Source of the DNA: a virus
IMG/VR virus record: IMGVR_UViG_3300023174_002543
Span: 251,664-315,663 of that record
DNA length: 64,000 bases
Direction: 5' to 3' (one strand)
The notes under the pieces are model-generated. The model did no database searches, had not been told where the DNA came from, and saw nothing but the letters and a program-made list of their open reading frames with translations. Every line of letters begins with the position of its first letter. Positions within the stretch are counted from its first letter, which is position 1. Positions 1,891 through 44,434 of the stretch are shown here, piece after piece. The translations under genes were made by a program, and so were the position numbers.

Positions 1891-2823
1891 CTAACGAATG
1901 TTATTGAAGTTTACATTTACTGCATAACCCACATCTGGATTATACTTGACCAACGCCTGAACTATATTTTCAAAACTTTGCCCAAATCTCTTTACTAATT
2001 TATCTAATGCTATAGGTTGATCTTTTTCATTCATAAATTGACCTTGATCGTCCGTATTATCAATCACAAAGTCTTCACCGTGAGTATGGTAATACTCATC
2101 AAGTTGATCACCCGAAGTTATGGGAATATCATCTATGAACACACTAAAGTATAACTGATATTTCTCACCCGTATATTGTGGTTGTTTTGGTAATAATATT
2201 ACTAATGGAAAACTACTATGATAACTATCAAAATAATTTGTTCCTGTTGTAGCCGCTGTGCACCAGCGAGTACCTTGACCATAATAACATGCCGCTTGTT
2301 TATTTTCAGGTATGATTGCTCTTACAGTATTATCTTGGTATAACTCTAATGCATTACCCTTTGCCATATTTGGATCAGTTGGGTCAGGATATTCATCTAG
2401 TACATCAAAAAAGTCTTCAAATGATCTGTACCCTAAAATATCGTTACGTGGACTAGATATCTTTTTACGTAATACAAGGTTATAAAACTTTGTCAAATAG
2501 TCGGTTAGTGTACTGCGTAAATCTTCAAATAACGTGCCATGAATATATTTCCACTCATTAATATAAGTTTTAATTATCCAGGGAGTATATTGATTATTTC
2601 TAGTAGGATCAACATTTTCAAATGCTTGTATTACTCTTGGTAAGTAGGTTTCAGCATTATTTTGAATCTCTTGTTCTATAGCATCACTACCAGTGATAGG
2701 TTTACGTATACCCAATTGCAATATCATGGTAGTGTCATTAACAATAGCTTGTAATAAGGCAGGACCAAACTTTTGAGTAGTTATAGCTCTGTTGTATTCA
2801 ATTAAAAATTCGTTTGCTCTCAT
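1891..2823 (-). CDS. Putative packaged protein with GxGTRWCTAA motif and T4-like targeting N-terminus
   Basis: A 310-residue protein of unknown activity. The N-terminus MRANEFLIE resembles the capsid-targeting sequence of T4 internal proteins (MKTYQEFIAE). Around residues 176-190 is ACYYGQGTRWCTAA, a W-C motif I recall from other large-phage proteins, flanked by beta-rich sequence (YQLYFSVFID). The start has AGGATG just upstream. It follows the 499-residue metalloprotease-like protein by 16 bases and probably shares its late transcript. No catalytic assignment is possible. Packaging in the head is inferred from the N-terminus alone. Confidence 0.6.
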   Translation of the reverse strand: MRANEFLIEYNRAITTQKFGPALLQAIVNDTTMILQLGIRKPITGSDAIEQEIQNNAETYLPRVIQAFENVDPTRNNQYTPWIIKTYINEWKYIHGTLFEDLRSTLTDYLTKFYNLVLRKKISSPRNDILGYRSFEDFFDVLDEYPDPTDPNMAKGNALELYQDNTVRAIIPENKQAACYYGQGTRWCTAATTGTNYFDSYHSSFPLVILLPKQPQYTGEKYQLYFSVFIDDIPITSGDQLDEYYHTHGEDFVIDNTDDQGQFMNEKDQPIALDKLVKRFGQSFENIVQALVKYNPDVGYAVNVNFNNIR

Positions 2824-2839
2824 TTAATCATCCTTTATG

Positions 2840-4339
2840 TTATTGAAACATTTCAGGGTGATCTTTACCGTATACTTTGATGTACTTACCAGCAGCCATA
2901 TCCGCCAGCATTTCAATTGGGCTACCTGGATAGCTATCACCATCTTTAATCATGTTCAATTGCATTTGACGATGATGTGTTAGTTCATGGAATATGGTAC
3001 GGAAGATATCAATTAAGTTTCTGTTACCAACATATACCCAAATATCATTACCTTTATGCACACCGGTATGATGACCTGCTTGTGCTACCTTAGTATTCTT
3101 ACTAATAGTAATCTTTGGATAAGGTTTTTGCATGTTAAGTGTCTTGTATGACCACTTAATAAAGTCTTTTATCTTTTGTATATCTTCCGGGCCTTCTACG
3201 CCCTCATTCACATTACTTTTTTTTTGGGATAATGGCGTGATGTTACCTTCTGGTTCTTTAACATCACGTTGTGTTGGTGGAAAAGTTCTTTTACCGTGTT
3301 GAACTTTATTCATTGGGCGCTTTAGTGGTAATACATCACCTTCCATCACACCTTGCTCATCTTCAGGTTTAGTAGTCAACACAAACTTCTTACCTGCATT
3401 AAATGACTTTGCCATCATTGTCCGAGCGGCTTTAGTAGCAGTTTCTTTGTTACGGTACTGATAGGGTGTGCCCATTTTATCTTTAACAATTTTACCATTA
3501 GCACGGATATACCATGTTCTTGTATCAACAGGATCTGGAACATGATATTCGTCATCTTCTCTATGACGCTTGCCTAAACTCGGGGAATTAGGATCTGCAA
3601 AACCATGACGATAACCGCTTTCCGCCACACCTTTAGTAACAATATAACCTTTGCCTTTACATTGTGGACAATTTGTAGCAACTTTTGTGCTATCTTTCTT
3701 TGTCATAGTATGATAACCTTTGCCATTACAATGTTTGCAATCGTGTGATGTGCTATCTTCCGCCACACCTAGTTTCTTATCTCTCTTTACAGCATCACTG
3801 TATGTTTTCAATACACTAGGATTCTTTTTAACAAGTTTGTTTAACTCTTTGCCACTTTCAATATCTTTTGACTTTTGAACATCTTTGGCGTATTTTTTAG
3901 TTAAGTCAGGTCTTGCCTTCAACAAATCTCTTAGCATTTTATCATATTCATCTTCTTCTAAACTGCCTTCCGCCACACCTTGTCTTCTACGCATAATTTC
4001 ATCAGTGATGGCAGCTATAATTTTTAATCCAATTTCATCTCTTTTGATAGTTTTAATCATACGCAAAAGATCGGATGTTGAATAATTTCTATAATGAGCA
4101 TGTCCGCTCTCGGTTACATCTTCTTCACCTAATCTGTTTTTGATTTTCTTAATCCAAGTATCAGGGGTATGTCCATATTTCTTAACAAACATGTCGTGTA
4201 ATTTTTTACCCGTGATTTTATGCTTAACAGAAATGTTTTGCATTAAACGGTCAATAGTGTCGTAGTTGTGGCGCTTAAGTTTAGGTAATCTATTCTTAAG
4301 TTCGTCTACGGCGGATTCTTCTAATTCGTGTGCTCTCAT
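2840..4339 (-). CDS. Modular CTS-type protein with DnaJ-like zinc cassette and HExxH metalloprotease domain
   Basis: A 499-residue chain of small cassettes. The N-terminus is MRAHELEESA. A helical cassette (about 15-72) and a second one (about 83-119) follow. CxxCxGxG pairs sit at 201-208 and 224-231, like half of a DnaJ zinc centre. A small basic domain spans about 274-325. The C-terminal domain has HELTH (451-455) with a downstream Glu (E477), a gluzincin-like zinc protease signature. The cassettes are separated by VTE/S (77), VAE/G (124), VAE/D (194), VAE/S (240), VME/G (333) and VNE/G (379), which resemble T4 prohead-protease sites. Start ATG 4339 lies 5 bases after a GATAAATA box and has no SD. 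Processing into peptides is inference. Confidence 0.7.
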   Translation of the reverse strand: MRAHELEESAVDELKNRLPKLKRHNYDTIDRLMQNISVKHKITGKKLHDMFVKKYGHTPDTWIKKIKNRLGEEDVTESGHAHYRNYSTSDLLRMIKTIKRDEIGLKIIAAITDEIMRRRQGVAEGSLEEDEYDKMLRDLLKARPDLTKKYAKDVQKSKDIESGKELNKLVKKNPSVLKTYSDAVKRDKKLGVAEDSTSHDCKHCNGKGYHTMTKKDSTKVATNCPQCKGKGYIVTKGVAESGYRHGFADPNSPSLGKRHREDDEYHVPDPVDTRTWYIRANGKIVKDKMGTPYQYRNKETATKAARTMMAKSFNAGKKFVLTTKPEDEQGVMEGDVLPLKRPMNKVQHGKRTFPPTQRDVKEPEGNITPLSQKKSNVNEGVEGPEDIQKIKDFIKWSYKTLNMQKPYPKITISKNTKVAQAGHHTGVHKGNDIWVYVGNRNLIDIFRTIFHELTHHRQMQLNMIKDGDSYPGSPIEMLADMAAGKYIKVYGKDHPEMFQ

Positions 4340-4344
4340 ACTTA

Positions 4345-4352
4345 TATTTATC
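4345..4352 (-). promoter_or_regulatory. T4-type late promoter, leaderless class
   Basis: GATAAATA on the minus strand, 5 bases before ATG 4339. Late T4-type transcripts start about 6 bases past the box, so the mRNA would begin at or next to the start codon. The surrounding 4340-4450 is an intergenic spacer with only a short AAAGTG/CACTTT hairpin. Confidence 0.75.
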
Positions 4353-4450
4353 TCAAAATAAGAAAGTGCTCACTTTTGAGGTCCAGTAGCGAATTGGATG
4401 ACTCAAGCCAGCAGCCGGCTACACATAACCCAAAGGGTCCTAAGGTGTGT

Positions 4451-5917
4451 TTATTTTAAACCTGCGAGTGATTTAATTCTGTTTAGTGATTTAGATTCAT
4501 CTGCTTGCACTGATGATACATCTTCATCAGGTAATTTGTCATTTTTATTATCGGTTGATACTGAAGGGTTACTAGATGCTAATTGAGTTTTAGCAATACC
4601 GTCTAATGTATCACCACGTTTTATTGTATAATCTTGTCCACCTACTTTAATAGTATCTCCGGCTCTAATTTTGTTAACATCTTTAATTTTATCAGCATTT
4701 GCTTGCTGAATTGACTGTGCTCCTGCAGAGCCTTTATAACCTGAATCAGGTGATGCAACATTACGTGAATTTGGTGTAGTATTATTCGGTTCTGGTACAT
4801 CTACACCTTTTTCATCAGTGTTGGGTGTGGTAGGGGGTGCAACAGCAGGCGCCGGCGGTTGTGATTTAACAGATGGCTGAACAGGTGATTGACCACCTCG
4901 TCCGGTCATACCTTTGTTTGCTGCAGCAGCATTGGCTGCACTCGTAACAGGATTTAGATTAGTAGACTTTGCAGGAGAGTTATATGCATCTCTAGCCGCA
5001 TTGACTCCCATTGCACCAAAAGATATTGCAGGACCAAAACCCGGCACAAACCCGCCGGCTGCGCCTAATGCAGATATAACTGCACCTGTTCTATCACCTT
5101 TTTGATATCTTCTATATGCTTCTTCAGCATCTAATGCTATACCTGCACCGGGAATAACTCTTCCCAATACTTTTTTACCTATTGACTTTGCTCCGGCTTT
5201 TGCTCCAGCCTCTGCACCCGCTTCGACCCCTGTTGCTACGTTAGGTCTATTAGCAGGAACCTCTTTACCCATAACTGGATCTATTCTAGTACTGGTATCT
5301 AATGCCGGTGTTTTTTGACCAAGTGTTGATGATATCTTTCCTTTAGCCGCATCGACCCCGGCATCAATGGTGGCTCTAACTTTTTTACCTGCATTGTAAC
5401 CTGTATCATATGCGGCAGTATTAGCTGGTGGTGTAGAAGCCGGTTTAACAGGGACTTCTCTGCCCATAGAAGGTTCACCGGGTCTAGCTGTCCCTACATT
5501 ATCATTAGGAACCGGTCTTCCGCCTACAGATGCTCCAGGTTTATCTATTCCAACTCTATTTGGTATATTTCCAGATGATGTGTTAGAGACAGGTGGTGTT
5601 GATGATACTTGTCCAGTTCTGTTATTTTTCCATACTGCTGGGTCGGAACTAGAGACGGGTGGTGTTGAAGAAGTTACACCAGTTCTTGGGTTAGTCCAAA
5701 CTGATGGCTTATTATTTACTGTACGTGCAGGATCATATCCTAGGTCCTGCATAGTTTTTATTTGACTAGGTGTTAATGGTGTATTGGTTTTATTTAACGG
5801 TACGCCTGCTTTTTCTAAATCTAATTGTGCTTTATATACAGCCGCTTGTCTAGGATCAGCTAAGTTTACAGTAGGCTTAGTTGCTTCGTTAATTTTATTA
5901 AATTCACTGAATCTCAT
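4451..5917 (-). CDS. Pro/Ala/Gly-rich CTS-type protein with glycine-zipper segment and LysM-like motif
   Basis: A 488-residue protein. N-terminus MRFSEFNKINEA fits the T4 internal-protein targeting pattern with a Glu/Ala junction. Residues 70-225 are low-complexity and Pro-rich, with a duplicated VW-x-N-x-R-T-G-x-x-SSTPPVS unit (73-89 and 95-111). Residues 228-310 are Gly/Ala-rich and hydrophobic (AGAEAGAKAGAKSIG, then ALGAAGGFVPGFGPAISFG), like membrane-inserting glycine zippers. Near 411-440 is LysM-like sequence (YTIKRGDTLDGIAK). Together these suggest a virion-delivered envelope-interacting protein; that role is inferred. ATG 5917 lies 7 bases past a late box and has no SD. Confidence 0.65.
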   Translation of the reverse strand: MRFSEFNKINEATKPTVNLADPRQAAVYKAQLDLEKAGVPLNKTNTPLTPSQIKTMQDLGYDPARTVNNKPSVWTNPRTGVTSSTPPVSSSDPAVWKNNRTGQVSSTPPVSNTSSGNIPNRVGIDKPGASVGGRPVPNDNVGTARPGEPSMGREVPVKPASTPPANTAAYDTGYNAGKKVRATIDAGVDAAKGKISSTLGQKTPALDTSTRIDPVMGKEVPANRPNVATGVEAGAEAGAKAGAKSIGKKVLGRVIPGAGIALDAEEAYRRYQKGDRTGAVISALGAAGGFVPGFGPAISFGAMGVNAARDAYNSPAKSTNLNPVTSAANAAAANKGMTGRGGQSPVQPSVKSQPPAPAVAPPTTPNTDEKGVDVPEPNNTTPNSRNVASPDSGYKGSAGAQSIQQANADKIKDVNKIRAGDTIKVGGQDYTIKRGDTLDGIAKTQLASSNPSVSTDNKNDKLPDEDVSSVQADESKSLNRIKSLAGLK

Positions 5918-5924
5918 ATATATA

Positions 5925-5932
5925 TATTTATC
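5925..5932 (-). promoter_or_regulatory. T4-type late promoter, leaderless class
   Basis: GATAAATA followed by seven alternating T/A bases and then ATG 5917. The predicted leader is 0-2 bases. It lies just after the stop of a 25-codon micro-ORF. Confidence 0.75.
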
Positions 5933-5934
5933 TA

Positions 5935-6012
5935 TTAAACCGGGCTGTATGGATTGCGAAATTTATCGTAACCGTCATCTTCAGGGTATACAGGATAATC
6001 GTTTGGATTCAT
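5935..6012 (-). CDS. Micro-ORF of 25 residues coupled to dps
   Basis: The reading frame encodes MNPNDYPVYPEDDGYDKF followed by RNPYSPV. Its ATG overlaps the dps stop codon (TAATG) and it fills the spacer up to the late promoter at 5925. The composition is Asp/Tyr/Pro-rich and acidic. Termination-reinitiation coupling is typical in this genome, which supports a real gene, but the size alone does not exclude chance. Confidence 0.45.
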   Translation of the reverse strand: MNPNDYPVYPEDDGYDKFRNPYSPV

Positions 6013-6452
6013 TATTCACGCTCAGTTTTAAGAATACTACGAATGAACCAAGCCTTCTTACCATATAAGTCTTGTAGTTCAGCCATATAGTTAGCAATAC
6101 CTTGTTGACGGTCTTCTGTTGCTTGGTCAAACATTGTAGTAACTAACTCAAGCATTTTTTCAATGTCTTGTAATGTTTCTGCAAACATTAATTGAGCACG
6201 TGGAATTTTTGTTTGGTCTTCAATAATAGTTAGTTCAGCATATCGTTGTAAACTACCTGGAGTATAACTACCTACTATTCTGATATACTCTGCAATAGTA
6301 TCAATTGTTTCATTTACATCTTGGTATAGTGTATCATAGAATTGATGATATTGTGGGAAATTACTACCTTCAATGTTCCAATGAAAGTTTTGACTTTTAA
6401 TAGCAAAACTCTGTGTGCTTGCTAATAATATTTTTAGGCTATCTGATAACAT
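6012..6452 (-). CDS. dps: Dps-family ferritin-like DNA protection protein
   Basis: A 146-residue four-helix protein. The inter-subunit ferroxidase ligands of Dps are all present with exact family spacing: H24 (in FHWN), H36 and D40 (YHQFYD), and D51 and E55 (DTIAEYI). E. coli Dps has H51, H63, D67, D78, E82. Dps dodecamers oxidise Fe(II) with peroxide, store iron and coat DNA. Here it lies within the run of putative packaged proteins. An AGAGGG lies about 11 bases upstream of ATG 6452. It could protect phage or host DNA, or condense the host nucleoid. Family identity is firm; the phage role is inference. Confidence 0.9.
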   Translation of the reverse strand: MLSDSLKILLASTQSFAIKSQNFHWNIEGSNFPQYHQFYDTLYQDVNETIDTIAEYIRIVGSYTPGSLQRYAELTIIEDQTKIPRAQLMFAETLQDIEKMLELVTTMFDQATEDRQQGIANYMAELQDLYGKKAWFIRSILKTERE

Positions 6453-6505
6453 TTTGGAAGAGTCCCTCTGTTCTTTAAATAAAAATCTACTAAATCTTGA
6501 TCCAT
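6434..6505 (-). CDS. Possible micro-ORF upstream of dps
   Basis: A 23-codon frame (MDQDLVDFYLKNRGTLPKCY plus QIA) begins 2 bases after the stop of the GP88-like gene and overlaps the first codons of dps. It may be a leader peptide that couples dps translation to upstream ribosomes, or it may be chance. No SD is seen. Confidence 0.25.
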   Translation of the reverse strand: MDQDLVDFYLKNRGTLPKCYQIA

Positions 6506-6507
6506 GA

Positions 6508-8151
6508 TTAGTGTTTCAATAACAATGTACTTAGTACACCTGTATCATTAGCACTTAAATCTGGCTCACCGGGTGCTACGATAACATTATATTTCATACT
6601 AGTGTTTTGGCTTTTCTTTACTGCCCACTCATCATAACTTAATATTGAGTTAGCACTAATGCCATATTCTTTTGCTAGTCGTTGTTTTAGTTCAGGTAGT
6701 TGGTCCGGTTTTACTTGCCACTGTCCTTCAGTACCTTTGACTAAATTACCCTTAGCATCTTTAACTAATAAGTCTTGGAATAGTCCAGTTGGTACAATAC
6801 GACTATTCTTAGTTTTATCTAAGTTAGGATCAGCAGCTTTAACTTGTTTCTCTTGTGAAGTGTGTGCGCCCTCACTCCAATTAATAATGAAGTTGCTTGG
6901 TTTTTGTGCAAGTGCAGCATTAGCCATTTTAGTATAAGCATAGAATTTAACGTCAGGTAAACTTTGTGCTAACTTAAATGCCAAGTCTAAGTATTCTGGA
7001 CTAAAGAAGTCGCCAGCATCATGCCAGCGAATACTAACAGAGTATCCACCCTTCTTACCTAAACTTTCTTCTTTAGCAATTTCATTTGCTAGTTGTTCAA
7101 AGAAACCATCTGGGTTATTCAATAGATATGTAATAATACGACCATCACTTAACCATGCGGCTTCAAACTGAATCTTACCACCTTTCATAGCAAAGCAATC
7201 TATTTTACAACTACCAGCACCCGGACATGTGTTGACTACAATTAAGTTGTTTGTGTTTTCATCTAGTGCAAGACCAACTAATGCAGCAAAGCCAATGTTA
7301 AAGAACTGTTCTAAGTCACCGTTGCTGTGCTTCATCTTTTCATTTTGCTTTAGTAACTTTTTAGGACGAACTGCTAATGCTTGTTTAACATCTTCTTCGC
7401 GGTATCTTTTACCAGTAGCATCATAATACTTGATTACGCTACTACGATGAATGTAAGGCATACGATATTTGTCTTGCTTTGTTTTACCAGACACATATTT
7501 CTCTTTGCCTTTTTTATCTAATTTAACTTGACCTGTTTTCTTATCAATGTCAGGAGTACCCGCAATACGTGTCATGTAGTCTTGGAATTCTTGCCCAGCA
7601 ATGTCACGCTGGTCAATAGGTAGTTTAGTTGCTTCATCTATACCCATATCTTTGTGACGTTGGGCTATTGATTCTTTAGCGCCTAATTGACTAAGTGCTT
7701 CTGCAGCTTTTGCTAGAGCCTCAGGGTTAGCAGAAGGGAATTTATTCATAATAAACTGTACTATGCTATTACTCCAAAGATACATTTTTTCTTTGTTATT
7801 CAAATCATGTTCAATTGATGGAGTAGGTACATAATATTGTTTATTAGATTTATATTCCTGCCATAATCTGTCATATTGAGTTGAATCTACAGGAGTAACG
7901 ATATTATGCATCATGCGTTGAAATGCTTCTTGATTCTTATCAATTCCGGTCTTTTTACCTAATATTCTGAGAACATAATTTTTTAATTTGTTTATTCCAT
8001 TACTAAAAGCACCTTCGTCTAATTCTTCATTATCATCAAAGTCATCTGCCTCAGGATGTTGAACAAACTGGTCAACACTCATAATTTTAATGCCGCTAGG
8101 CGCACCGGGTAATTTAGGCGTTGCGCCTTCCATTAATTCTATGATATTCAT
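6508..8151 (-). CDS. CTS-type protein with GP88-like domain
   Basis: A 547-residue protein. The N-terminus MNIIELMEGATP has a Glu-Gly/Ala junction typical of this locus, and a second ELDEGAF lies at about 44-50. The C-terminal half matches what I recall of the phage GP88 family: CPGAGSCKIDCFAMKGG (about 307-323), RWHDAGDFFSPEYLDLAF (about 373-390) and FYAYTK. The family has no settled biochemical function; its clustered Cys suggest metal binding. ATG 8151 overlaps the stop of the preceding gene (ATGA). It is probably co-packaged if the N-terminus is a true targeting signal. Confidence 0.65.
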   Translation of the reverse strand: MNIIELMEGATPKLPGAPSGIKIMSVDQFVQHPEADDFDDNEELDEGAFSNGINKLKNYVLRILGKKTGIDKNQEAFQRMMHNIVTPVDSTQYDRLWQEYKSNKQYYVPTPSIEHDLNNKEKMYLWSNSIVQFIMNKFPSANPEALAKAAEALSQLGAKESIAQRHKDMGIDEATKLPIDQRDIAGQEFQDYMTRIAGTPDIDKKTGQVKLDKKGKEKYVSGKTKQDKYRMPYIHRSSVIKYYDATGKRYREEDVKQALAVRPKKLLKQNEKMKHSNGDLEQFFNIGFAALVGLALDENTNNLIVVNTCPGAGSCKIDCFAMKGGKIQFEAAWLSDGRIITYLLNNPDGFFEQLANEIAKEESLGKKGGYSVSIRWHDAGDFFSPEYLDLAFKLAQSLPDVKFYAYTKMANAALAQKPSNFIINWSEGAHTSQEKQVKAADPNLDKTKNSRIVPTGLFQDLLVKDAKGNLVKGTEGQWQVKPDQLPELKQRLAKEYGISANSILSYDEWAVKKSQNTSMKYNVIVAPGEPDLSANDTGVLSTLLLKH

Positions 8152-9962
8152 TTGTTATTTCCTGATAGTCTAAGTAAGTTATTTAATTCAACTGTAGATT
8201 CACCTAAATCTTTTGGTTTTTCTTGTTGTTTATTTTTGGCATCTTGTTCTTGTGCTTTACGCTTTAAGTTAGCAATCATTTTAGCCCATTGTTCAGGAGT
8301 ATATAGTCCACCAATTAAGCCATCATCTTCATCATCTTTTACTTCTGCTACTTCTTTTTTGTCATTTGGTTCATCTGGTATTGGAACTGGTTTAACTGAG
8401 TGCCAACCCGGCCCGGGTGGTGCCATCACTACATCAAAGTTTTTACCACCACCTAATTCTAATATCTTTTTGATATTATTCATTGTTTTAGTTTCAGAAG
8501 AATTTTTAACAACAACAGTACCATCTGGTTTAATTTCATGTACTAATTGCTGAACAATATTAGACATGCCGGGCATTTTTTTTGAACCACGATTCAATGC
8601 TTTCTTAGCGGCAGCTGCCTGTGGGCTAGAATTCTCATGTATTTGTTTTTGCATTGACGATGCAGGTACTATAGTCCAATTACTATCATATGGGTGTGTT
8701 TTATGTAATTCGGTACTTGCTTGTACTTTAGGTATTGGCCCGGTTACATCATCACCCTTTCCGTGATATTTTCCGTGAAAATCTAAATTACCGCGCATCA
8801 CTATATACCACTGGTCATTAGATACAAGTTCATTTAGTTCAACGGATTCGTTATGTTTTTTTTTACTGACAGAATCTTTAAATGATTGTGCAGTTGGTGC
8901 ACCTTTGCTACCCGGCTTACGCATATGCTCACCTGAACCATTTTTGATTCGTTTTTGTTTAGCATGTATGTTAGCCCATAGACCCTTGCTTTCTTCTTCT
9001 ATTTCGTCACCGGGTGTAGGTGTCGTTGGTGCTGCGGTAGGTGTTGCGGCTGGGTTGCCTCCAGCAGTAGCCGGAGGATAATCGGCCGCTGTTTTACGGG
9101 CACTCGGCGCTACTCCATTTGTATATTGTGTTGGTTTCAACGTAGCATTAGGCATGTTGTTTGGGTTAACTACACTTTTAGCCATTCCCTGAATATTTGA
9201 TGCCGCTTGATTAGCATCAAATTTTTCTAACTCATCTGGATTAGCAGAGTTAATAGTTTGTTGTGCTTGCAGATATTGCTGTTGTTGTTGCGGTGATAAT
9301 CTTGCGTATTCAGGGTCTTTTGTTGGGTCTTGGCCTCTGAATCTTCTAACGTCATTAGAAACACCTCTCATTAATTGAGGTGTAAATTGTCTAATAGCAT
9401 TACCGGCTTGTTGTGCTTGTTGTGCTGGGTTACCTGCTTCTTTTAGTTTTGAAATTTTTTGTTCAGCAATCATTACTAATTGTTTTAGTTCTTGTACACT
9501 CTCACAATGCCATCTACGTAAACTCTTATTGATATTACTGTTTGGATCTCTTGCAGTCTTAGCACCTGTACGATGCTTTTTCATACCACGCATTCTAGCA
9601 CAGAAACTAGCACGGCGTTTTGCAGATTTACTACCCTTTTTTAATTTACTAGGCTTAGTAGTTACAGCAGTTTGAATTTTACTACCTGGATGACTACGGC
9701 GATAACTCTTTACAGATTTTTGACTCATGCCGCCTGCACGTGGATTGTTATGCTTGCTCCAGTTCTCACCTTCCGCCAATTCATCTTTTTTAGAAATAGC
9801 AATTGCTGCCTGTTGTTTGGCATTAGCGGCTTCATTTGCCGGTACACAATTGTTAACTCTAACTCCGCCCTTCATTTTAGTGCCTTGCTTTTTATAGCCT
9901 GTCCAGCACTTAGGATCAAGTCGTTTCTTTTCTTCTACAATCGTAATTTGATTTATTTTCAT
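8148..9962 (-). CDS. Modular basic CTS-type protein with recurring phage cassettes
   Basis: 604 residues. N-terminus MKINQITIVEEKK. Cassette 1 (about 16-41) contains CWTGYKKQGTKMKGGVRVNN. After LAE/G (64) comes a strongly basic cassette (70-153) with SYRRSHPGSK, AKRRASFCARMRGMKK and KTARDPNSNINKSLRRWHC, a module I recall in many phage ORFs. A Gln/Ala-rich middle follows, then KGLWANIHAKQKRIKNGSGE (about 326-346), another recurrent phage module, and DQWYIVMRGN. Acidic linkers with NES/NEL/EES may be cleavage sites. Charge suggests DNA binding. It overlaps both neighbours by ATGA, so it sits in a tight operon. Function unknown. Confidence 0.65.
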   Translation of the reverse strand: MKINQITIVEEKKRLDPKCWTGYKKQGTKMKGGVRVNNCVPANEAANAKQQAAIAISKKDELAEGENWSKHNNPRAGGMSQKSVKSYRRSHPGSKIQTAVTTKPSKLKKGSKSAKRRASFCARMRGMKKHRTGAKTARDPNSNINKSLRRWHCESVQELKQLVMIAEQKISKLKEAGNPAQQAQQAGNAIRQFTPQLMRGVSNDVRRFRGQDPTKDPEYARLSPQQQQQYLQAQQTINSANPDELEKFDANQAASNIQGMAKSVVNPNNMPNATLKPTQYTNGVAPSARKTAADYPPATAGGNPAATPTAAPTTPTPGDEIEEESKGLWANIHAKQKRIKNGSGEHMRKPGSKGAPTAQSFKDSVSKKKHNESVELNELVSNDQWYIVMRGNLDFHGKYHGKGDDVTGPIPKVQASTELHKTHPYDSNWTIVPASSMQKQIHENSSPQAAAAKKALNRGSKKMPGMSNIVQQLVHEIKPDGTVVVKNSSETKTMNNIKKILELGGGKNFDVVMAPPGPGWHSVKPVPIPDEPNDKKEVAEVKDDEDDGLIGGLYTPEQWAKMIANLKRKAQEQDAKNKQQEKPKDLGESTVELNNLLRLSGNNK

Positions 9963-10606
9963 ATCAGTCCACCATTTTCTACTAATTCTTTATGTGCATT
10001 TAATATACTAGCAACATCAGGCTTTTCCATAAAAGGTTTATTATTAATAACACTTACATGTGTGGGAGGATATCCTTCCCATAATTGATGTATATCTTCG
10101 GTTGTTATTGTGTTTTTATTGTGTATTCTATGTAATTCTTTTGCTACTGCGTGTGGACCATGATACCAGAAGTCATTATCTTCTTCTATCATATTCATTT
10201 CTTCCAGCATTGCTTGCTCAATTTGTTTTCTAAGAAGCACATCAGATATAGTTCTACGTTTACCTAAATCACGTAGTTTTGCTTTTTTAAACAATTCTTC
10301 TTGTCTTTGTTTAGCAAGTAGATTTTCTTCACTTATTTCATCTTCATAGATGCCGGCTTTACTACTGTTAGCATATTTTTTACTAGTTTTAATACCTGAG
10401 AATATACTATTACTACGCTTATTCATCTCACCCATTGGTTGTGCAATAGTTGCTACACATCCTGAAGTCATTTCTTCTACTTTGTCAATCTTCTTTTCTT
10501 TTTCTAAGACAGTAGGATGACGACCAAAACGAGGTGCGTCACCGGCATTCTGAGTAATCCCAGGATCTCCGGCGACTGAACCTTCTTGTAAATGACTGAT
10601 TTTCAT
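9959..10606 (-). CDS. CTS-type protein of unknown function
   Basis: 215 residues, starting MKISHLQEGSVAGD with the Glu-Gly/Ser junction seen in neighbouring genes. A segment at about 45-90 (GCVATIAQPMGEMNKRS) precedes a charged helical region with many Glu/Lys. No known domain is recognised. The stop overlaps the next gene's start (ATGA). A GCTAAATA box lies 20 bases upstream with no clear SD. Confidence 0.55.
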   Translation of the reverse strand: MKISHLQEGSVAGDPGITQNAGDAPRFGRHPTVLEKEKKIDKVEEMTSGCVATIAQPMGEMNKRSNSIFSGIKTSKKYANSSKAGIYEDEISEENLLAKQRQEELFKKAKLRDLGKRRTISDVLLRKQIEQAMLEEMNMIEEDNDFWYHGPHAVAKELHRIHNKNTITTEDIHQLWEGYPPTHVSVINNKPFMEKPDVASILNAHKELVENGGLI

Positions 10607-10626
10607 AATATATTCCGAATATCTTA

Positions 10627-10634
10627 TATTTAGC
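10627..10634 (-). promoter_or_regulatory. Late-type promoter box (GCTAAATA)
   Basis: GCTAAATA on the minus strand, 20 bases before ATG 10606. It matches the CTAAATA variant known for T4-like cyanophage late promoters. It would drive the 215/604/547-residue genes and perhaps dps. Confidence 0.55.
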
Positions 10635-10642
10635 TTATTTTG

Positions 10643-13600
10643 TTAGGCTATCTTTATTCCAAATACTGCCCAGTTATAACCATCACTCCAAACATCCCAA
10701 TATTGGGTAGTAGCTTGTGCTAACACTTTGGTACTTGCAGAACTACCGCTTGGACCATAGAAGTTACCTGCTGGTGTACTTAATGTAATGTTTTGTGAAG
10801 TGTTTTGCCAGAATCTATAACCAATACCTGAGTTAGCAGCCTGTGTTGGGTCTGGTAGCGTAACAGTATATGTACCTGAACCAGCAAATTCAATAAATCC
10901 ACTAGCATCTGAAGTTGTTAATGTAGTAGTTGTAGTAAGCACTCTAGCACTCTTGCGTATGCCACCAGTAACACTTAAATTACCTTGTATTATTGTATTT
11001 CCAGAAACAGATAAATTACCTGCAGTTTTTAAATGACCGGCTGATGCATCAATAGTAACTTTAGATGTGTGCTTTAAATTTCCATCATATATCATTACAT
11101 CCATATCACCTGCACTAGCATTATCTAGTGTTGGAGTAGATGATGTAATAAATCCACTTAATATACTTGTACCATTAGCATAGTTAATTTTAGAAGTATC
11201 AGATGGTAATGTTAAATTACCGTTTTCATCGAATGTCCAACGATGTGCTATACCGTCACTTGCTTTCTGATTTTCAATGTATACTTGAGGTTTGTTTATT
11301 AAATTATCTTTGAATGTTACATCTATCCAAGACCATGCATCATTAGGTCCAGTAGCAACATCTTCTACGTATACATCCCAAACACCTGCTGTTTGATACT
11401 CTACTGTTCTATAATTTTCAAATGTTGTAGTGAGTTGCAATGATGTATCAGAAGTTATGTTACCTGTAGGGACTGTTGTAGTTCCGTCAGTACCAAATGT
11501 CCATTGATTGTTATTTGTACTAGTTCCAACAACAACATTGCCGCCGTTCTTTTCAATCTTAACATACTGGTCGTCATCGCCCAAGTACATGTCAGTAATT
11601 GAAGGATCGCCGGCTATTAAGTGAACATGATGGTCTTCACTACTACCACTTCTTGTTAGTGTAAGCGGTGATATCAATCCACCAATACTAAACCCTACAG
11701 CATTGCTAAGGGTGATAGTGAAAGTTGTCATAGTACTTGATACTGGTATAGTCCAAGTTATTAGTTTAGAAGGCTCACTAGTAAATGTCAATGTACCTGT
11801 TAACGCTCTACCTAATTGTTGTTGAGTACAATCAGTAAATGTATAATCTACTGTTCCGGTAACTGGGGTAAGGTTATAATCAGGAATTATAGTTATAGTT
11901 ATAGTATCACCGTCCGCAAATCCACCAGGATGATCGGAACTAATTCCTTGAGCACCTGTTAGGCGAACTACTAAACTTTGTCCAGCCAATGCATTCGGTG
12001 GTGTGATGGCTGTTGAGTTGGCTGTTTCACTTAAGATAGTACCTTGTGGTAATGCTAAGTTACCATCTTTATCAAATGTCCAAGTACTAGTGACTCCATA
12101 TGAATTAACAGTTTGCAATCTAATATTGCCGGCAACCGTTACCACTTCAAAATCACTAGTGTCAGGCGGTGTGATATTAAATGTTTTTTGTCCACCGTTA
12201 TCCGTCGTTTGAGAAATATTAGCACCATTAGCAATTGTCAATACAGCATCATCATGGAAAGTCCATTGATATCCGTCGACTTCAATAGCAGCATAAGTTT
12301 CTTCTACCCAAATATAATTATTATGGCTTTGCATCGAGGCATAATTTAATCCAACGATATTAACTACATTGGTATCACCGTCATTATTAATTACACCACC
12401 TCCCGGTACTGTTAAATTACCATCTTTATCAAATACCCAATTCTTATTAGTAACAGTAGAAGTTGGGAAGTTGATACTAACAATTCCAGTCTGACCTGCA
12501 GGCAATGTTCCATCTATTCTACCACTATATCTTTGTCCATGGTCATGACCTGGATCATTTTGTCCTTGTCCTGTAAATTGCTGACTTAATACACTAGTAA
12601 ATGTTTGATTTCCTGATAGTGTTGAGTAAGTAACAATAACAGTTGCTCCTAAACTCGCACCAATTAATACACTCCATATAGGAGCCTGTGCCGTAAATAT
12701 ATTAATTTCAATTTGTTGTTGATTACGTTGACGCCAGCCGTCTATAACTCCAAAACCATTGCCGATATCTACATCAGTATAAAACTGAGAACCATTTGAC
12801 CCTATAGTATGGTCAGTGGTTACAAATTCACCTGATCTTAATACTACATTACCATAATTGTTGAATAGTGTAGTAACTGCACCAGGATCTGTTCTACCAT
12901 TATCAGGTAAGGTCAATCCAGCCGTTGCACCATGCGCTGTGTCACTATTATTAATTTGTCCGCCGGCATAGTTATATATTGTATCATTACGAAATTCCCA
13001 ATTACCTGTACTTGCACCGCCTGTAGGTGCAGCCGCAAATACGCCATTGCCATAAAGAATATTACTTGCATTACCGTCTTTATCAATAGATGATATATTA
13101 CCTAATGTTGGCTTACTAGTTAAGTCTGCATAACTACCACTATACAAACTAGGTTTATTAGATAGATTGTTATAGTCACCATTAAACAAACTTGGCTTAT
13201 TTGTTAAGTCTACATAGCTACCACTGAATAGACTTGGCTTATTTGTTAAGTCTGCATAACTACCACTAAACAATGCTGGCTTACCTGATATATTAGCCCA
13301 TGTTGCTTTGTTATCAACATAAGTAGTAGTAGCATAACTAGATAATGCACTAGTATCAACTTTTCCAGCTAATGCACTAGTGATTGTACTGGCATAACTA
13401 CTATTATTTGCTAATGAATTTGCTAATTCTTTTAATGTATCCAATGCGGCGGGTGCCCCATCAACTAAATTATTAATTGCTGTAGTAACATATGATTGTG
13501 TAGCATAACTAGCAAGACTAGGTAGATTTAACAAATCATTGTAACTACCGGACGTTGCAATTGTGGCAAAACTAGGTTTACCGGTAACATTAACATATGC

Positions 13601-13927
13601 AACTGAATTTGCAACATCTGCAATATTTGCACGGTATGAACTCCCTACTGAACCACTATAGGTACTTAAGTAATTTTGTACAATAGTGTTAATTAATCTT
13701 GTCATAGATACGTTACTAACAACCGGATCTGTTGGGATAGTAACTGTTGCAGTATTAGCAATGGGGGGAGTAACTAATGGTTTTTTAGAACCAGAACCAA
13801 ATTGTGGATCTACTTTGGTATTAACAGTAGTAGATGATGCTACTGATGACATATCAATGAACGTAGATTGCGTTGTTCTGATACTAGGATCTACTTTATT
13901 GTTTATTTTTTTATTTGTAGTTGCCAT
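10643..13927 (-). CDS. Large tail-fibre-like structural protein
   Basis: About 1094 residues from ATG 13927 (MATTNKKINNK). An alternative ATG at 13972 would overlap the upstream gene. A run of five 14-residue units (SYADLTNKPSLFSG type) lies in the N-terminal third. Many beta-strand modules of WTFDKDGNLTLP type follow, with SVSGNTIIQGNLSVTGG before a compact C-terminal tip (YWDVWSDGYNWAVFGIKIA). This is the architecture of trimeric phage fibres with a repetitive shaft and a globular receptor or assembly tip. It lies 13 bases after the NTase/GNAT gene. No S74 chaperone domain is visible, unlike the 1976-residue fibre. Receptor role is inferred. Confidence 0.75.
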   Translation of the reverse strand: MATTNKKINNKVDPSIRTTQSTFIDMSSVASSTTVNTKVDPQFGSGSKKPLVTPPIANTATVTIPTDPVVSNVSMTRLINTIVQNYLSTYSGSVGSSYRANIADVANSVAYVNVTGKPSFATIATSGSYNDLLNLPSLASYATQSYVTTAINNLVDGAPAALDTLKELANSLANNSSYASTITSALAGKVDTSALSSYATTTYVDNKATWANISGKPALFSGSYADLTNKPSLFSGSYVDLTNKPSLFNGDYNNLSNKPSLYSGSYADLTSKPTLGNISSIDKDGNASNILYGNGVFAAAPTGGASTGNWEFRNDTIYNYAGGQINNSDTAHGATAGLTLPDNGRTDPGAVTTLFNNYGNVVLRSGEFVTTDHTIGSNGSQFYTDVDIGNGFGVIDGWRQRNQQQIEINIFTAQAPIWSVLIGASLGATVIVTYSTLSGNQTFTSVLSQQFTGQGQNDPGHDHGQRYSGRIDGTLPAGQTGIVSINFPTSTVTNKNWVFDKDGNLTVPGGGVINNDGDTNVVNIVGLNYASMQSHNNYIWVEETYAAIEVDGYQWTFHDDAVLTIANGANISQTTDNGGQKTFNITPPDTSDFEVVTVAGNIRLQTVNSYGVTSTWTFDKDGNLALPQGTILSETANSTAITPPNALAGQSLVVRLTGAQGISSDHPGGFADGDTITITIIPDYNLTPVTGTVDYTFTDCTQQQLGRALTGTLTFTSEPSKLITWTIPVSSTMTTFTITLSNAVGFSIGGLISPLTLTRSGSSEDHHVHLIAGDPSITDMYLGDDDQYVKIEKNGGNVVVGTSTNNNQWTFGTDGTTTVPTGNITSDTSLQLTTTFENYRTVEYQTAGVWDVYVEDVATGPNDAWSWIDVTFKDNLINKPQVYIENQKASDGIAHRWTFDENGNLTLPSDTSKINYANGTSILSGFITSSTPTLDNASAGDMDVMIYDGNLKHTSKVTIDASAGHLKTAGNLSVSGNTIIQGNLSVTGGIRKSARVLTTTTTLTTSDASGFIEFAGSGTYTVTLPDPTQAANSGIGYRFWQNTSQNITLSTPAGNFYGPSGSSASTKVLAQATTQYWDVWSDGYNWAVFGIKIA
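13101..13287 (-). repeat. 42-bp coding repeats in fibre gene
   Basis: About five diverged copies of a 42-base unit encoding SYADLTNKPSLFSG-like peptides. They are shaft repeats and potential recombination sites that vary fibre length. Confidence 0.7.
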
Positions 13928-13940
13928 TTTTTCGTCTTTC

Positions 13941-15686
13941 TTATGGTTGTAGTGTCGGTGGCGTTCCGTCACGTTTTATTTTGCTACCTAATTTCTTAGC
14001 ATTTTGTTGCATTGTGTATGGTGTAATATCTACTGTTAATGCAGTTTTAAATCTAGGGTCGTTACGTTCTTTTTCACTTGGTATATATCCTGACGCTTCC
14101 TTCATTAGATTCTTAGCATCACTTTTTTTAATTAGTTTTCCCCAACCGTCAGGATAAAGATTGAGGTTATCTTTACCCCAACCACGCCACATCTTTTTTC
14201 CTAATTTTGTTTGATTTAATTCACCTTCATTGTCAGTGCTTTTCTTAATATCATTACCCAACATTTTAGCATAAGCATATATTTGATATGCAATATTCTG
14301 TCCTCTATAATCTGGTTCTACTCTAGTCATATCGCTTTCTAGCCAATGTTCGCCATTTTTATCTCTATGAGCAATAAAGTTTGTGTATGCTATAGGATTT
14401 TTTGTACTATTATATGGATCAAATACCTCAATAGTTAATCCGGGACTGTCTTCACCCCAATCATATCCCTTGCTTGTATATGTATTTGCTCCTTCAGTGC
14501 CAGTCGCTATATAAATATACCTGCCAAACTTCATTTTATGTTTGAAATTAGGATTTAATGTGTTTGTATCTACAGCCTCATTGATATTTTCTTTCATTAG
14601 ATGTTTAGCGTCTTTGCCCCATTTCTTCCACATTTTGTTACCCGCAACGGTCTGATACTTACTAGGTCTAACAGAAAATCCTAAACTCTTGGCAACTGCA
14701 TACATCATAGCGGCAATTCCCTTACCTTGATGACTATCATCTACCATTGTGTCATCACTTTCTAACCAACTATCATTCTCGTCCTGGTGAAGAACTAATT
14801 CTGCGGTACCTACTATTTGTTCATTTTTTGGTAATTTGGGATCATACGCAGTAATAAACATACCCGGAATATAATCAAAACCATTTAATGTATTTTGTAC
14901 TCTGAATACATAACCGCCAAACTTAACTACTTTAGAAAGTGCCTTAGGTTCATAAAGAAAGTCTTTATTTACTGATTCAGGTAAACTTAGTTTCTTATCG
15001 TGTAATGTCTGTAGTTTTTCATATAATCTTTTAATAATACCCTTGCTACGTAGTATTTTAAATGCTAGATTTTCTGGACTAAATTCTCCGCCCTCATCTA
15101 ATCCTGCTTGACGATATTTCTTTATTGTTTTAAGTACATATTTAATCTTGTGTGAATCACTACTACGCATAGCGTATTCAGCCAATTTATATAATTTACG
15201 ATATTTATTCTTTGTAGCAACTTGACTTATATGTGCTTTTCGCTTTCTTGGCAATTTAATCCAACTATCACGTAATATGCTATATTCACCTAAACTAATT
15301 ACGGGTTCGTTACTATCTTGTACATATAATTCTACGTCAATTCCACCAATTGTTATGCTATGTGTATCATTATATATTGTCTTTTTAGCATCAAAGAATT
15401 CACGGTAAACTGGATCATTATTAAATTTACTCATATCTACTAATATATGTAAATCAATATCACTATGCTTTGTATAACTATATGCCGCATTACTTCCGCT
15501 TAATGTAATATCTTGTACTTCTATGTCATTAATTCCTAAATGATCCACAAAATCCTGTGCAATTAATAATAATTGGTCATGGACTTGAGGCTTTAATCTA
15601 TCCCCATTGAACAACTCCGGGTTTAATTCTTCGTGGAAATGTATAGCGTCTAATAGGCTAAAACTGTCAAATTCTAATAGGTTCAT
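13941..15686 (-). CDS. Nucleotidyltransferase fused to two GNAT acetyltransferase-like domains
   Basis: 581 residues. N-terminus MNLLEFDSFSLLDA. The pol-beta-type nucleotidyltransferase signature is GSNAAYSYTKHSDIDLHI (G64, S65, D76, D78), with a later acidic residue in IDVELYVQD. Two related domains follow, with GNAT acetyl-CoA-loop-like sequence: HQGKGIAAMMYAVAKSLG (about 317) and YRGQNIAYQIYAYAKMLG (about 455). Each ends in KMW(K/R)xWGKDA/N, so they look duplicated. LMKENINEAV (about 370) may be a cleavage linker between them. Toxin-like or tRNA/protein-modifying activity is possible but unproven. ATG 15686 lies 5 bases after a CATAAATA box with no SD. Confidence 0.75.
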   Translation of the reverse strand: MNLLEFDSFSLLDAIHFHEELNPELFNGDRLKPQVHDQLLLIAQDFVDHLGINDIEVQDITLSGSNAAYSYTKHSDIDLHILVDMSKFNNDPVYREFFDAKKTIYNDTHSITIGGIDVELYVQDSNEPVISLGEYSILRDSWIKLPRKRKAHISQVATKNKYRKLYKLAEYAMRSSDSHKIKYVLKTIKKYRQAGLDEGGEFSPENLAFKILRSKGIIKRLYEKLQTLHDKKLSLPESVNKDFLYEPKALSKVVKFGGYVFRVQNTLNGFDYIPGMFITAYDPKLPKNEQIVGTAELVLHQDENDSWLESDDTMVDDSHQGKGIAAMMYAVAKSLGFSVRPSKYQTVAGNKMWKKWGKDAKHLMKENINEAVDTNTLNPNFKHKMKFGRYIYIATGTEGANTYTSKGYDWGEDSPGLTIEVFDPYNSTKNPIAYTNFIAHRDKNGEHWLESDMTRVEPDYRGQNIAYQIYAYAKMLGNDIKKSTDNEGELNQTKLGKKMWRGWGKDNLNLYPDGWGKLIKKSDAKNLMKEASGYIPSEKERNDPRFKTALTVDITPYTMQQNAKKLGSKIKRDGTPPTLQP

Positions 15687-26237: not shown

Positions 26238-27161
26238 TTATGCAGTAAGTTCAATTAGTGTTGCCGCTAAGTTAATTTCTGGGATACCCACTAAACTTAA
26301 ATTCGCTAATCCATTACGAATTGTAATGATACTAGCATCACGCTTGTCGCTACTATCTCCCCACAACTCTAAATTGTTATACATCCATTTGTATATATCT
26401 TCAATACGTCCAGGGTATAAACTTAGATGTTGTAATAGTTGTTGGCGACCCTCAATGATTTTACCTGCCTTGAATAATTGAGTAGCCGCAAGTAACAATT
26501 CATCTTCGCTATTGCCGATAGAAACCATTGGCAACAACTTACCACTATTACTGTTGACTTGTAATTGATTTAAACATTTACGTAAGTCTGGATAACTTGC
26601 ACCAACATAGGTATCTAATACATCTAAATCAAACTCAATATCTTCTTTTACTAGTACTGTAGCCGCTCTTGCAGTAAACTCGTCTTTATCTGTTTTACTG
26701 ATGTGAAATTCATGGCATCTGCTCTTAAGTGCAGGGATAATTCTATGCTGATAGTTACAGGTTAGAATAAATCGTGCGGTCATGTGATATGATTCCATAT
26801 CACTACGCAATGCTGCTTGACCTGCTGGAGTTAAATAATCAGCCTCGTCTAATAGAACAACCTTGAATTTACCGAAAGGCATTGTTTGTACAAAACCTAC
26901 AATCTTGTCACGAACCACATCAACACTATTCTCACGACTTGCGTTGATTTCTAGTACATCATATTCTTCTACACCAAGTTCATTGATAAGAACTTTAGCA
27001 AGTGTAGTCTTACCTGTACCTGGGTCACCACTGAATAATAGATGAGGAATACTCTCATCTTTAATCCAGCCTGCTACCTGTTCACGTTGACGTTCATCTG
27101 CAAACACATAGTCTTCTACGGATTGTGGTCTATATTGTTCTACCCAAAGTTGATTCTTCAT
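26238..27161 (-). CDS. 44: Sliding-clamp loader ATPase, T4 gp44-like
   Basis: 307 residues, AAA+ clamp-loader subunit. N-terminus LWVEQYRPQSVEDYV, Walker A FSGDPGTGKTTLAK (43-56), Walker B VVLLDEADYLT, sensor 1 FILTCNY, and the SRC box (LKSRCHEF) with its arginine finger. It would load the gp45-type clamp for gp43. ATG overlaps the BI-1 stop (ATGA). Confidence 0.95.
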   Translation of the reverse strand: MKNQLWVEQYRPQSVEDYVFADERQREQVAGWIKDESIPHLLFSGDPGTGKTTLAKVLINELGVEEYDVLEINASRENSVDVVRDKIVGFVQTMPFGKFKVVLLDEADYLTPAGQAALRSDMESYHMTARFILTCNYQHRIIPALKSRCHEFHISKTDKDEFTARAATVLVKEDIEFDLDVLDTYVGASYPDLRKCLNQLQVNSNSGKLLPMVSIGNSEDELLLAATQLFKAGKIIEGRQQLLQHLSLYPGRIEDIYKWMYNNLELWGDSSDKRDASIITIRNGLANLSLVGIPEINLAATLIELTA

Positions 27162-27847
27162 TTACGGTCACCAAATAAATTTAAAAGATTTAAGAATATG
27201 TTAACAAAATCTAGGTACAATGTCAATGCCCCTACTACCTCCTGTGTAGCCGAATTTTCATTCTCTACCATAAGCATTTCACGTATTTGTTGGGTATCAT
27301 ATGCAGTAAGGCCCAAAAAGATAATAATAGCCAACGCACTAATAATTGTAGCCATAACACTTGATCCAATGAAGATATTAACAATACTGGCAATAAAGAT
27401 AGCAATCAACCCAATAAACATAAACTGCCCTAGACTTTCGAGACTGCGTTTAGTGAAGTAACCATAAATACTCATAGTACCAAATAGTATTGCCGCACCC
27501 ATAAATGCAGATACAATACTACCCATTGTAAACACGGCAAATATAGTAGCAAAACTTAATCCCATTAATGCTGCAAAACCATGTAACATTAATACTGCTG
27601 TTTGTTTAGGAGGATTGCTATTTAAAGCAACTGTAATTAACATGATTGCCACTAGTGGTGAAAAGATTACGATCCACTTTGTTACACCTGTAAAAAAGAA
27701 TTGAAGCAATTCTGGACTTGTACCAATAAAATAACTTACAAGCATACTAGTAAGTACTGCTAATGACATATGTTTATACACATTTGCCATACTTGTATTG
27801 ATTTCTTCCGCTGAGCGGTAACTATTGTAAACTGTTTCGTATATCAT
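27158..27847 (-). CDS. Bax inhibitor-1 (TMBIM/YbhL-like) membrane protein
   Basis: 229 residues with about seven hydrophobic segments after an N-terminal MxxVYKHMSLAVLTSMLVSYF. Family-typical elements include IYGYFTKRSLESLGQFMFIGL, FLGLTAYDTQQI in the last transmembrane region and ALTLYLDFVNIFLNLLNLFG at the end. The family forms pH-dependent calcium leak channels in membranes. It sits between gp44 and a GroES-like operon and is translated with both (GAGG upstream, ATGA overlap downstream). In a phage it might modulate host membrane stress or lysis; that is speculation. Confidence 0.88.
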   Translation of the reverse strand: MIYETVYNSYRSAEEINTSMANVYKHMSLAVLTSMLVSYFIGTSPELLQFFFTGVTKWIVIFSPLVAIMLITVALNSNPPKQTAVLMLHGFAALMGLSFATIFAVFTMGSIVSAFMGAAILFGTMSIYGYFTKRSLESLGQFMFIGLIAIFIASIVNIFIGSSVMATIISALAIIIFLGLTAYDTQQIREMLMVENENSATQEVVGALTLYLDFVNIFLNLLNLFGDRK

Positions 27848-43822: not shown

Positions 43823-44434
43823 TTATTTACCTTTGTTTATTCTAGCATTACCCGTCAGTGGTTTCTGAATGGGGGTTATCTTTGACATTGGACTTTGTGT
43901 ATTGATACCTTCTTTGCTCTTGTTAGGACTTGATGGAGTCTTTGGCGCATCAAATACATAGTCAATACTAGGTCTCTTAGGGACCACTTTGTCTAGGTAC
44001 TGATTAGCATAATCTTTACTAGCTTGCTTACCATTGTCTTCCATTTCAGGTTGCAGTAATAATGGCTCTGCCTTCATTTCATTTCCAAACTTTTCACTTT
44101 CTGCATTGATACTATCATTGTAATCAGTAGTAGTAACTCTAACTTTATTGATGTTGCATCCTAATAATTGTGCAACTTGCTGAATCATTGGTTCATTAGC
44201 TGGGTATTTGAATTCAGCTTTAATTATGGTAATTGATTCGTTTTGCAGTTCAGGAAATCCATATGGATCTTTTTGAATAGGGGTGGTTTTTGGATCTTCA
44301 ATTTTAACTGGGTCAAATTTTGAAAGATTATGCATGAACATATCCAAGAAATTCTTATCTAAATCACCTGCGATTTTGATAGTATACTTGTATGTTCTTG
44401 CTGATTCCATTAGATAGTGACGAAGGCTTTTCAT
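43823..44434 (-). CDS. CTS-type protein in head gene region
   Basis: 203 residues. MKSLRHYLMESARTYKYTI fits the targeting pattern with Glu-Ser/Ala. The following domain (IKIAGDLDKNFLDMFMHNL, then ITIIKAEFKYP) is compact and I recall it from other T4-like phages without a known role. A Pro/Lys-rich C-terminal tail ends the protein. It has its own late box with AGGA upstream. It may be a head core or internal protein; that is inference. Confidence 0.6.
   Translation of the reverse strand: MKSLRHYLMESARTYKYTIKIAGDLDKNFLDMFMHNLSKFDPVKIEDPKTTPIQKDPYGFPELQNESITIIKAEFKYPANEPMIQQVAQLLGCNINKVRVTTTDYNDSINAESEKFGNEMKAEPLLLQPEMEDNGKQASKDYANQYLDKVVPKRPSIDYVFDAPKTPSSPNKSKEGINTQSPMSKITPIQKPLTGNARINKGK

Follow-up and report, generated by a model that had tools for sequence, protein, structure and literature searches.

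The leader of T4 internal proteins, MKTYQEFIAE↓A (arrow, cleavage or apparent cleavage site), is read for targeting mainly at residues 4 and 7 and for processing at residues 8 and 10 (PMC9026906). One T4 protein handled in this way, Alt, is an enzyme that is cut at ITE-6 and LTE-619 (PMC5694885), and T-even phages have at least ten capsid-targeted internal proteins (PMC12373910). Polyvalent proteins of phages and plasmids are multidomain injected effectors with ADP-ribosyltransferase (ART), peptidase, ParB-like and lysozyme domains (PMC5512222, Iyer et al. 2017).

We analysed a window of 64,000 nucleotides, positions 251664-315663 of a 367,104-bp virus record (G000). Elsewhere than in the window, the record has a T4-type head block comprising a portal-like gene, a gp21 protease, a gp22-like scaffold and gp23, so that both T4-type gp21 and gp23 are encoded:

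G000 62183-62818: gp21 protease (phrog_207, E=3e-61)
G000 63961-65157: gp23 (phrog_138, E=2.5e-99)

The closest named phages by gp23 are jumbo myoviruses (64-68% identical), and the neighbours include Vibrio phage 2.275.O, PA5oct, Phosso and 121Q/PBECO4; at the nucleotide level the window matched no named phage. Both gp21 and gp23 were present in 11 of 20 related records and both were absent from the other 9, which may be contig fragments; a sheath homologue was found in 4 of those 9. In this clade the apparent cleavage site of gp23 is LLAE↓S or LAE↓N, and gp22 and gp23 show the same x-E cleavage rule as the leaders described below. Boxes of the GATAAATA type, which resemble T4 late promoters, lie upstream of the portal gene, tail genes and several leader-bearing genes (carriers) in G000, with TAAATA-type late-promoter boxes found at 6 of 14 carriers compared with 81 of 459 other genes (p=0.03).

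A first-pass annotation of the window had listed nine genes whose products would start with a T4-like capsid-targeting leader. All nine are present on the minus strand where it had placed them, and eight of them, together with others genome-wide, begin with a leader ending in hydrophobic-x-E, as expected of T4-type internal proteins (about 8-20 amino acids, usually followed by a small residue):

1891-2823 (-): carrier of 310 aa, GxGTRWCTAA family (PHROGs of unknown function); leader MRANEFLIE↓Y at 2797-2823
2840-4339 (-): candidate polyprotein carrier of 499 aa with AVDELK module, DEYDKM cassette, DnaJ-type zinc module and HExxH end; leader MRAHELEE↓S at 4316-4339
4451-5917 (-): carrier of 488 aa with a LysM-like C-terminal part (PF01476, E=2.5e-5, 15 positions only); leader MRFSEFNKINE↓A at 5885-5917, called from the motif and a TAAATA-type upstream box only
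6508-8151 (-): carrier of the GP88 family (PF17338, E=6e-24); leader MNIIELME↓G at 8128-8151
8148-9962 (-): basic carrier of 604 aa, DUF6321 / phrog_727 (PF19846, E=1.2e-9; phrog_727, E=1e-34); leader MKINQITIVE↓E at 9933-9962
9959-10606 (-): carrier of 215 aa with no family above cut-off; leader MKISHLQE↓G at 10583-10606
13941-15686 (-): NTase and GNAT protein that is no leader carrier; x-E sites NINE↓A and LMKE↓A inside the chain
43823-44434 (-): carrier of 203 aa whose PA5oct homologue has a virion note; leader MKSLRHYLME↓S at 44405-44434
52628-53467 (-): carrier with a GNAT-like FDQPY module, VNE↓S and a YunG-like part; leader MRATEFIAE↓L at 53441-53467

The ninth candidate, MNLLEFDSF of 13941-15686, was rejected, as its relatives start with MNLKELNSF-type sequences that have no site, or start differently. 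A ferritin/Dps-like protein without a leader (6012-6452, minus strand; PF00210, E=7e-16) is encoded within the same gene cluster. Elsewhere in the window are an A-type iron-sulphur carrier-like gene (63585-63908, minus strand; PF01521, E=8.6e-19), with a second one, similar by eye, adjoining a leader-bearing gene outside the window (G000 186492-186815), and a gene for a Bax1-I family membrane protein (27158-27847, minus strand; E=1.5e-51); the annotation of PA5oct has an FtsH-interacting membrane protein adjoining an FtsH.

The leader is common to otherwise unrelated proteins and is kept within each family. MRAxEFLxEY occurs in all five relatives of 1891-2823 that cover that end; the AF2 model of this protein (pLDDT 72) gave no PDB fold match and no recognisable fold. 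Relatives of 2840-4339 begin MRAYELEE↓S, MRAFDFITE↓D, MRYNELLIE↓S, MRAVQFINE↓S or MKINEILSE↓S, so that the upstream part varies while E↓S is mostly kept, a few having no site. The starts MKITELYE↓GAEPKLPGAP, MNFKELLE↓GAEPKLPG and MKIKHLME↓GAEPKL keep E↓GAEPKLPG among relatives of 6508-8151, and those of 9959-10606 start MKISSLFE↓MTTT or MKIKTLLE↓TTTP. Similarly, 43823-44434 has relatives with MRGLKQFITE↓S, MKNFQQYLAE↓S, MKTFVDYLTE↓S and MKSFKAYLTE↓S, and 52628-53467 has relatives with MRASEFITE↓VF, MRASEFIIE↓VF and MRANEFLSE↓LF, giving the pattern MRA[STN]EF[IL].E. In some but not all relatives of 8148-9962, RLDPKCW follows EFITE↓A, MKINEIISE↓ or QGVAE↓. No relatives of 4451-5917 were found among the loci compared, and its leader is therefore read from the motif alone. 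The first-pass annotation had named homologues that do not conserve the N-terminal segment as counter-evidence; the families aligned did not bear this out. The residue after the leader Glu is Y in 1891-2823, E in 8148-9962 and L in 52628-53467, instead of the usual small residue.

We quantified the leader with a strict T4-style expression, ^M[KR].{3,8}[ILFMV].E[AGS], applied to script-chosen gene starts; in T4, as a positive control, it recovered IPII and IPIII. G000 gave 10 matches, compared with 0.94 expected from shuffled N-termini and 0.80 from internal Met positions, and a relaxed expression gave 28 against about 10 expected. At the DNA level, the leader pattern matched 40 times in 21 large records and its reversed control pattern 0 times. 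Leader codons vary while the amino acids are kept, which indicates that the protein is what is conserved. About 15 leader candidates, mostly unrelated proteins, are spread genome-wide in G000, including the following outside the window:

G000 186812-187357: leader MRATEFITEA
G000 187362-188948: leader MRASEFITEA
G000 188945-190894: leader MRASEFITEA; order of parts MRASEFITE↓AFDQPY module, QGVAE↓G, QGVTE↓N, LysM, GH19
G000 190891, 204327, 320356, 345827, 350513: further leader-bearing genes

Other starts in G000 include MRANEFISES, MKINEIINEG and MKSNEFNVNEA. The form M-R-A-x-E-F-I-x-E-A was found in at least 119 IMG/VR stretches, and among the matches listed 120 begin open frames. Behind it there is commonly a 125-aa basic family, along with ADP-ribosyltransferase, transglycosylase (SLT), GNAT, GH19-type lysozyme, DUF6321 and many proteins of no assigned family. 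An ART-PolyVal domain (E=1.6e-28) follows the leader MRAREFIFE↓A in the relative L111; none was found among the window's own proteins. A PADLOC run found no defence-system relatives. Neither the 134-aa MRANEFISES protein nor a relative of 125 aa matched a named phage in tblastn; the exact MRAxEFIxE expansion was thus seen in no cultured phage. Gene starts close to the T4 tag were seen in the Synechococcus phage S-RIM2 (MKSYKQFMSE↓S; L147 2338-2664) and in S-CRM01 (MKLFNQFFKE↓A; L148 1683-2540).

The first-pass annotation had not picked up what look like polyprotein carriers with internal protease-like sites and a cassette repeat at the DNA level. From their sequences, several carriers look like polyproteins of exchangeable modules: family searches and module architectures show several domains per chain, relatives of module-bearing carriers mix modules freely, and a given module may stand after the N-terminal tag in one protein and after an internal site in another. 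In 2840-4339, the leader is followed by AVDELK, QGVAE↓G, DEYDKM, LGVAE↓D and the DnaJ-type zinc module (DnaJ_CXXCXGXG, E=3e-6, short of the curated cut-off), and then by KGVAE↓S, QGVME↓G, NVNE↓G and an HExxH metallopeptidase-like C-terminal module; its relatives differ in module architecture. The FDQPY module was assigned in 52628-53467 from an alignment at 21% identity, and its fold matches GNAT structures (AF2, pLDDT 80; GNAT domains among the best PDB matches, TM ~0.48). The YunG-like part of the same protein was matched at E=0.024 only. A 1163-aa protein encoded at 40104-43595 (minus strand) has many x-E sites, including LDAINE↓D, YIEE↓A, LTE↓G and TSSIEE↓G repeats, and is possibly, judging by these, another core or cargo polyprotein.

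The clearest view of the junctions came from the FDQPY and FADGK modules, for which we collected 51 upstream contexts without GVAE, counted as distinct although partly related and not fully independent. P1 is Glu in 51 of 51 and P3 is V, L, I or M in 46 of 51, with P2 and P4-P8 variable. Among these contexts are the N-terminal leaders MRASEFITE↓ and MRIAEIMSE↓ as well as the internal joins RVWE↓, QGILE↓ and SVNLTE↓. The last comes from Vibrio phage ValKK3 (KVP40-like; L149 3515-4435), where the FDQPY module follows SVNLTE↓A, so that the internal-junction architecture reaches Straboviridae. Modules WSEKYK, AVDELK and YRDRMY behaved in the same way; for RLDPKCW, one of about six modules tested, the rule was not clearly seen. 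As far as the residues tell, [VILM]-x-E at module junctions is the T4 gp21 rule, in line with the clade's apparent gp23 site and with the T4 sites ITE and LTE (PMC5694885), and the protease would have to accept V at P3. At some sites the P1' residue is a poor one (Y, L, E, K).

QGVAE, the junction seen most often, is kept as DNA (CAAGGTGTGGCGGAA), unlike the leader. We compared 41 distinct junctions from loci that protein searches had turned up. GCG encodes Ala in 38 of them and GTG encodes Val in 35, whereas the remainder of these ORFs use those codons for 7% of Ala and 23% of Val; the exact CAAGGTGTGGCGGAA 15-mer is present in 30. The median spacing of GVAE sites is 77 aa. The window has 4 copies of the repeat, with up to 2 mismatches, compared with 0.22 expected, all in 2840-4339:

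3967-3982 (-): junction repeat CAAGGTGTGGCGGAAG, QGVAE↓G, exact match
3757-3772 (-): junction repeat, LGVAE↓D, 1 mismatch
3619-3634 (-): junction repeat, KGVAE↓S, 2 mismatches
3340-3355 (-): junction repeat, QGVME↓G, 2 mismatches

The first two bracket the DEYDKM cassette. Extended to a 17-mer (CAAGGTGTGGCGGAA plus GG), the repeat occurs at 156 or more distinct IMG/VR sites, and at 154 of the 156 listed the longest ORF reads it as QGVAEG; use of one frame indicates that the reading matters. The 70 single matches in bacterial genomes, 25 of them in the QGVAEG frame, were set aside as chance-like. A strict leader stands at the start of 14 of 70 junction ORFs compared with 27 of 605 neighbouring ORFs (p=2e-5). 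A 210-nt DEYDKM cassette, 99.5% identical, is third in one copy of the GP88-type gene (L172) and first in another (L175), both of which contain QGVAE cassettes, and 2840-4339, which is another gene altogether, contains a near-identical copy in the window phage. A protein without a leader is encoded next to the terminase gene (G000 339362-340960); its relatives L170 and L171 contain QGVAE-type cassettes, and it may, on this pattern, be a virion protein.

Virion evidence came from the ESI-MS/MS marks on proteins in the RefSeq record of PA5oct. Marked proteins include homologues of 1891-2823, 43823-44434, G000 190891-191445 and the FDQPY module, of which two map as follows:

PA5oct 130473-131921: homologue of 1891-2823, start MKLFEVFTLYE, ESI-MS/MS virion note
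PA5oct 126689-127291: homologue of 43823-44434, ESI-MS/MS virion note

Two PA5oct HExxH proteins, starting MRLNEINLIE and MKILEFNLTE, are also marked. The N-termini of PA5oct resemble G000 leaders only loosely, and the link between motif and detection there is weak (27 relaxed matches, about 8 of them MS-positive by our own count, against 19% overall). The enrichment of notes among homologues (3/3, Fisher p=0.09; 6/8, p=0.08) falls short of significance, and we therefore take the marks as support, not proof. Detection speaks to presence in the virion, neither to cleavage nor to location in the head.

For the eight leaders, the capsid-targeting reading of the first-pass annotation has good support in the gp21/gp23 background of the phage, the E-F-I-x-E↓A sequence and the conserved N-termini, with MNLLEFDSF dropped from the set. 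It is further backed by modules that follow tag or internal site interchangeably and by the virion notes on PA5oct relatives. The simplest account would extend T4-type targeting and gp21 processing to polyproteins, with QGVAE acting as both cut site and cassette homology. Late in infection, tagged proteins would bind the prohead core, and a gp21-type protease would remove the tag by cutting behind the Glu in [ILVFM]-x-E. Further [VILM]-x-E sites would lie between the small modules of several carriers, so that one tag would bring in several passengers, to be cut apart within the prohead; the cargo would be ejected with the DNA, on the model of T4 IPs and Alt. The QGVAE↓G repeat CAAGGTGTGGCGGAA would serve as short homology through which in-frame cassettes are exchanged between cargo genes. 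We infer packaging, cleavage, ejection, the recombination mechanism and the role of each module, and we consider targeting, gp21 cleavage, cargo polyproteins and repeat-mediated exchange, taken as one account, to be probable. The more specific proposal, that a clade of environmental T4-like jumbo phages swaps in-frame cassettes (about 60-80 codons, each ending in CAAGGTGTGGCGGAA) between capsid-tagged polyprotein genes, with CAAGGTGTGGCGGAA also encoding a QGVAE↓G head-protease site and so being recombination and protease site in one, seems to us evenly balanced.

The most serious competitor is that the leaders are true capsid-targeting signals and the internal junctions stay uncut, being either linkers that are simply flexible or remnants of mobile DNA elements that sit in frame. 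Synonymous sites of QGVAE are conserved, as they would be in a mobile repeat, and polyvalent proteins are sometimes packaged uncut, as is the N4 vRNAP (PMC5512222). However, a repeat that is only mobile leaves the non-GVAE junctions unexplained and was set aside as the whole explanation: at those junctions P1 is invariant and P3 mostly aliphatic while P2 and P4 vary, the same modules also follow N-terminal leaders, and the 17-mer keeps to one frame. We regard uncut junctions as unlikely.

The shared N-terminus could instead be a generic amphipathic start, or a tag for baseplate, portal or membrane, as might be suggested by the tail genes near the window's cargo genes, by the short helix that the leader would form and by some PA5oct virion homologues without an E site (MKSFRDYYDA). 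Yet the leader resembles T4 MKTYQEFIAE and ends in the gp21 cleavage rule, which recurs internally and in gp23 and gp22, making a signal for another structure improbable. Inflation of the pattern by coincidence, or by common ancestry of a few paralogues, draws on the shortness of the motif and the sizeable background of the relaxed expression; we give it very little credence, given carriers that are mostly unrelated apart from a leader conserved within families, with differing codons for the same amino acids and no hits for the control pattern.

If targeting and processing work as proposed, jumbo phages may enter the cell with a large arsenal of ready-made proteins whose make-up keeps shuffling, and the leader offers a sequence-only way of listing the proteins that they likely deliver at infection. 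ADP-ribosyltransferases, acetyltransferases, peptidases and wall hydrolases are among them, and many may act early in host takeover or against host defences. Cut junctions would mean that a bacteriophage fills its head by way of polyproteins, and the QGVAE repeat offers a testable mechanism for reshuffling such arsenals. The open-access literature searched, with incomplete coverage, held no description of the cassettes or the leader expansion, so their novelty is provisional; the tag is of a known kind, and the cassette polyproteins appear undescribed.

Among known systems, T4 IPI, IPII, IPIII and Alt have, like the G000 carriers, a short leader at the N-terminus with I-x-E or L-x-E at its end, the ITE of G000 leaders matching the Alt site ITE-6, and T4 internal proteins are likewise unrelated except for the leader, in a phage with gp20-gp21-gp22-gp23. 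In G000 the leader often has one residue fewer (MRAxEFIxE), a single genome has about 15 candidates, and several carriers have multiple domains and 300-660 aa; for T4, the literature surveyed describes neither internal junctions nor a DNA repeat. In phiKZ and SPN3US, where a prohead protease cleaves many head proteins after Glu, inner-body and ejection proteins among them, as proposed here, the P3 rule is different (S/A/G-x-E or A-x-E), propeptides are mostly long, and a cassette repeat is not described in the literature surveyed. PA5oct (Arenbergviridae, a Pseudomonas phage), with a gp23 67% identical to that of G000, has MS-noted homologues of four tagged or tag-related families, but few strict leaders (3), and neither the MRAxEFIxE expansion nor a QGVAE polyprotein was noticed there. 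For polyvalent proteins, processing has been proposed via their own zincin-like domains, whereas G000 has small modules, gp21-type x-E sites, a T4-like tag and a nucleotide-level junction repeat. Integron-like cassette systems use a dedicated recombinase and dedicated sites; the G000 repeat is 15-17 nt long and lies inside reading frames.
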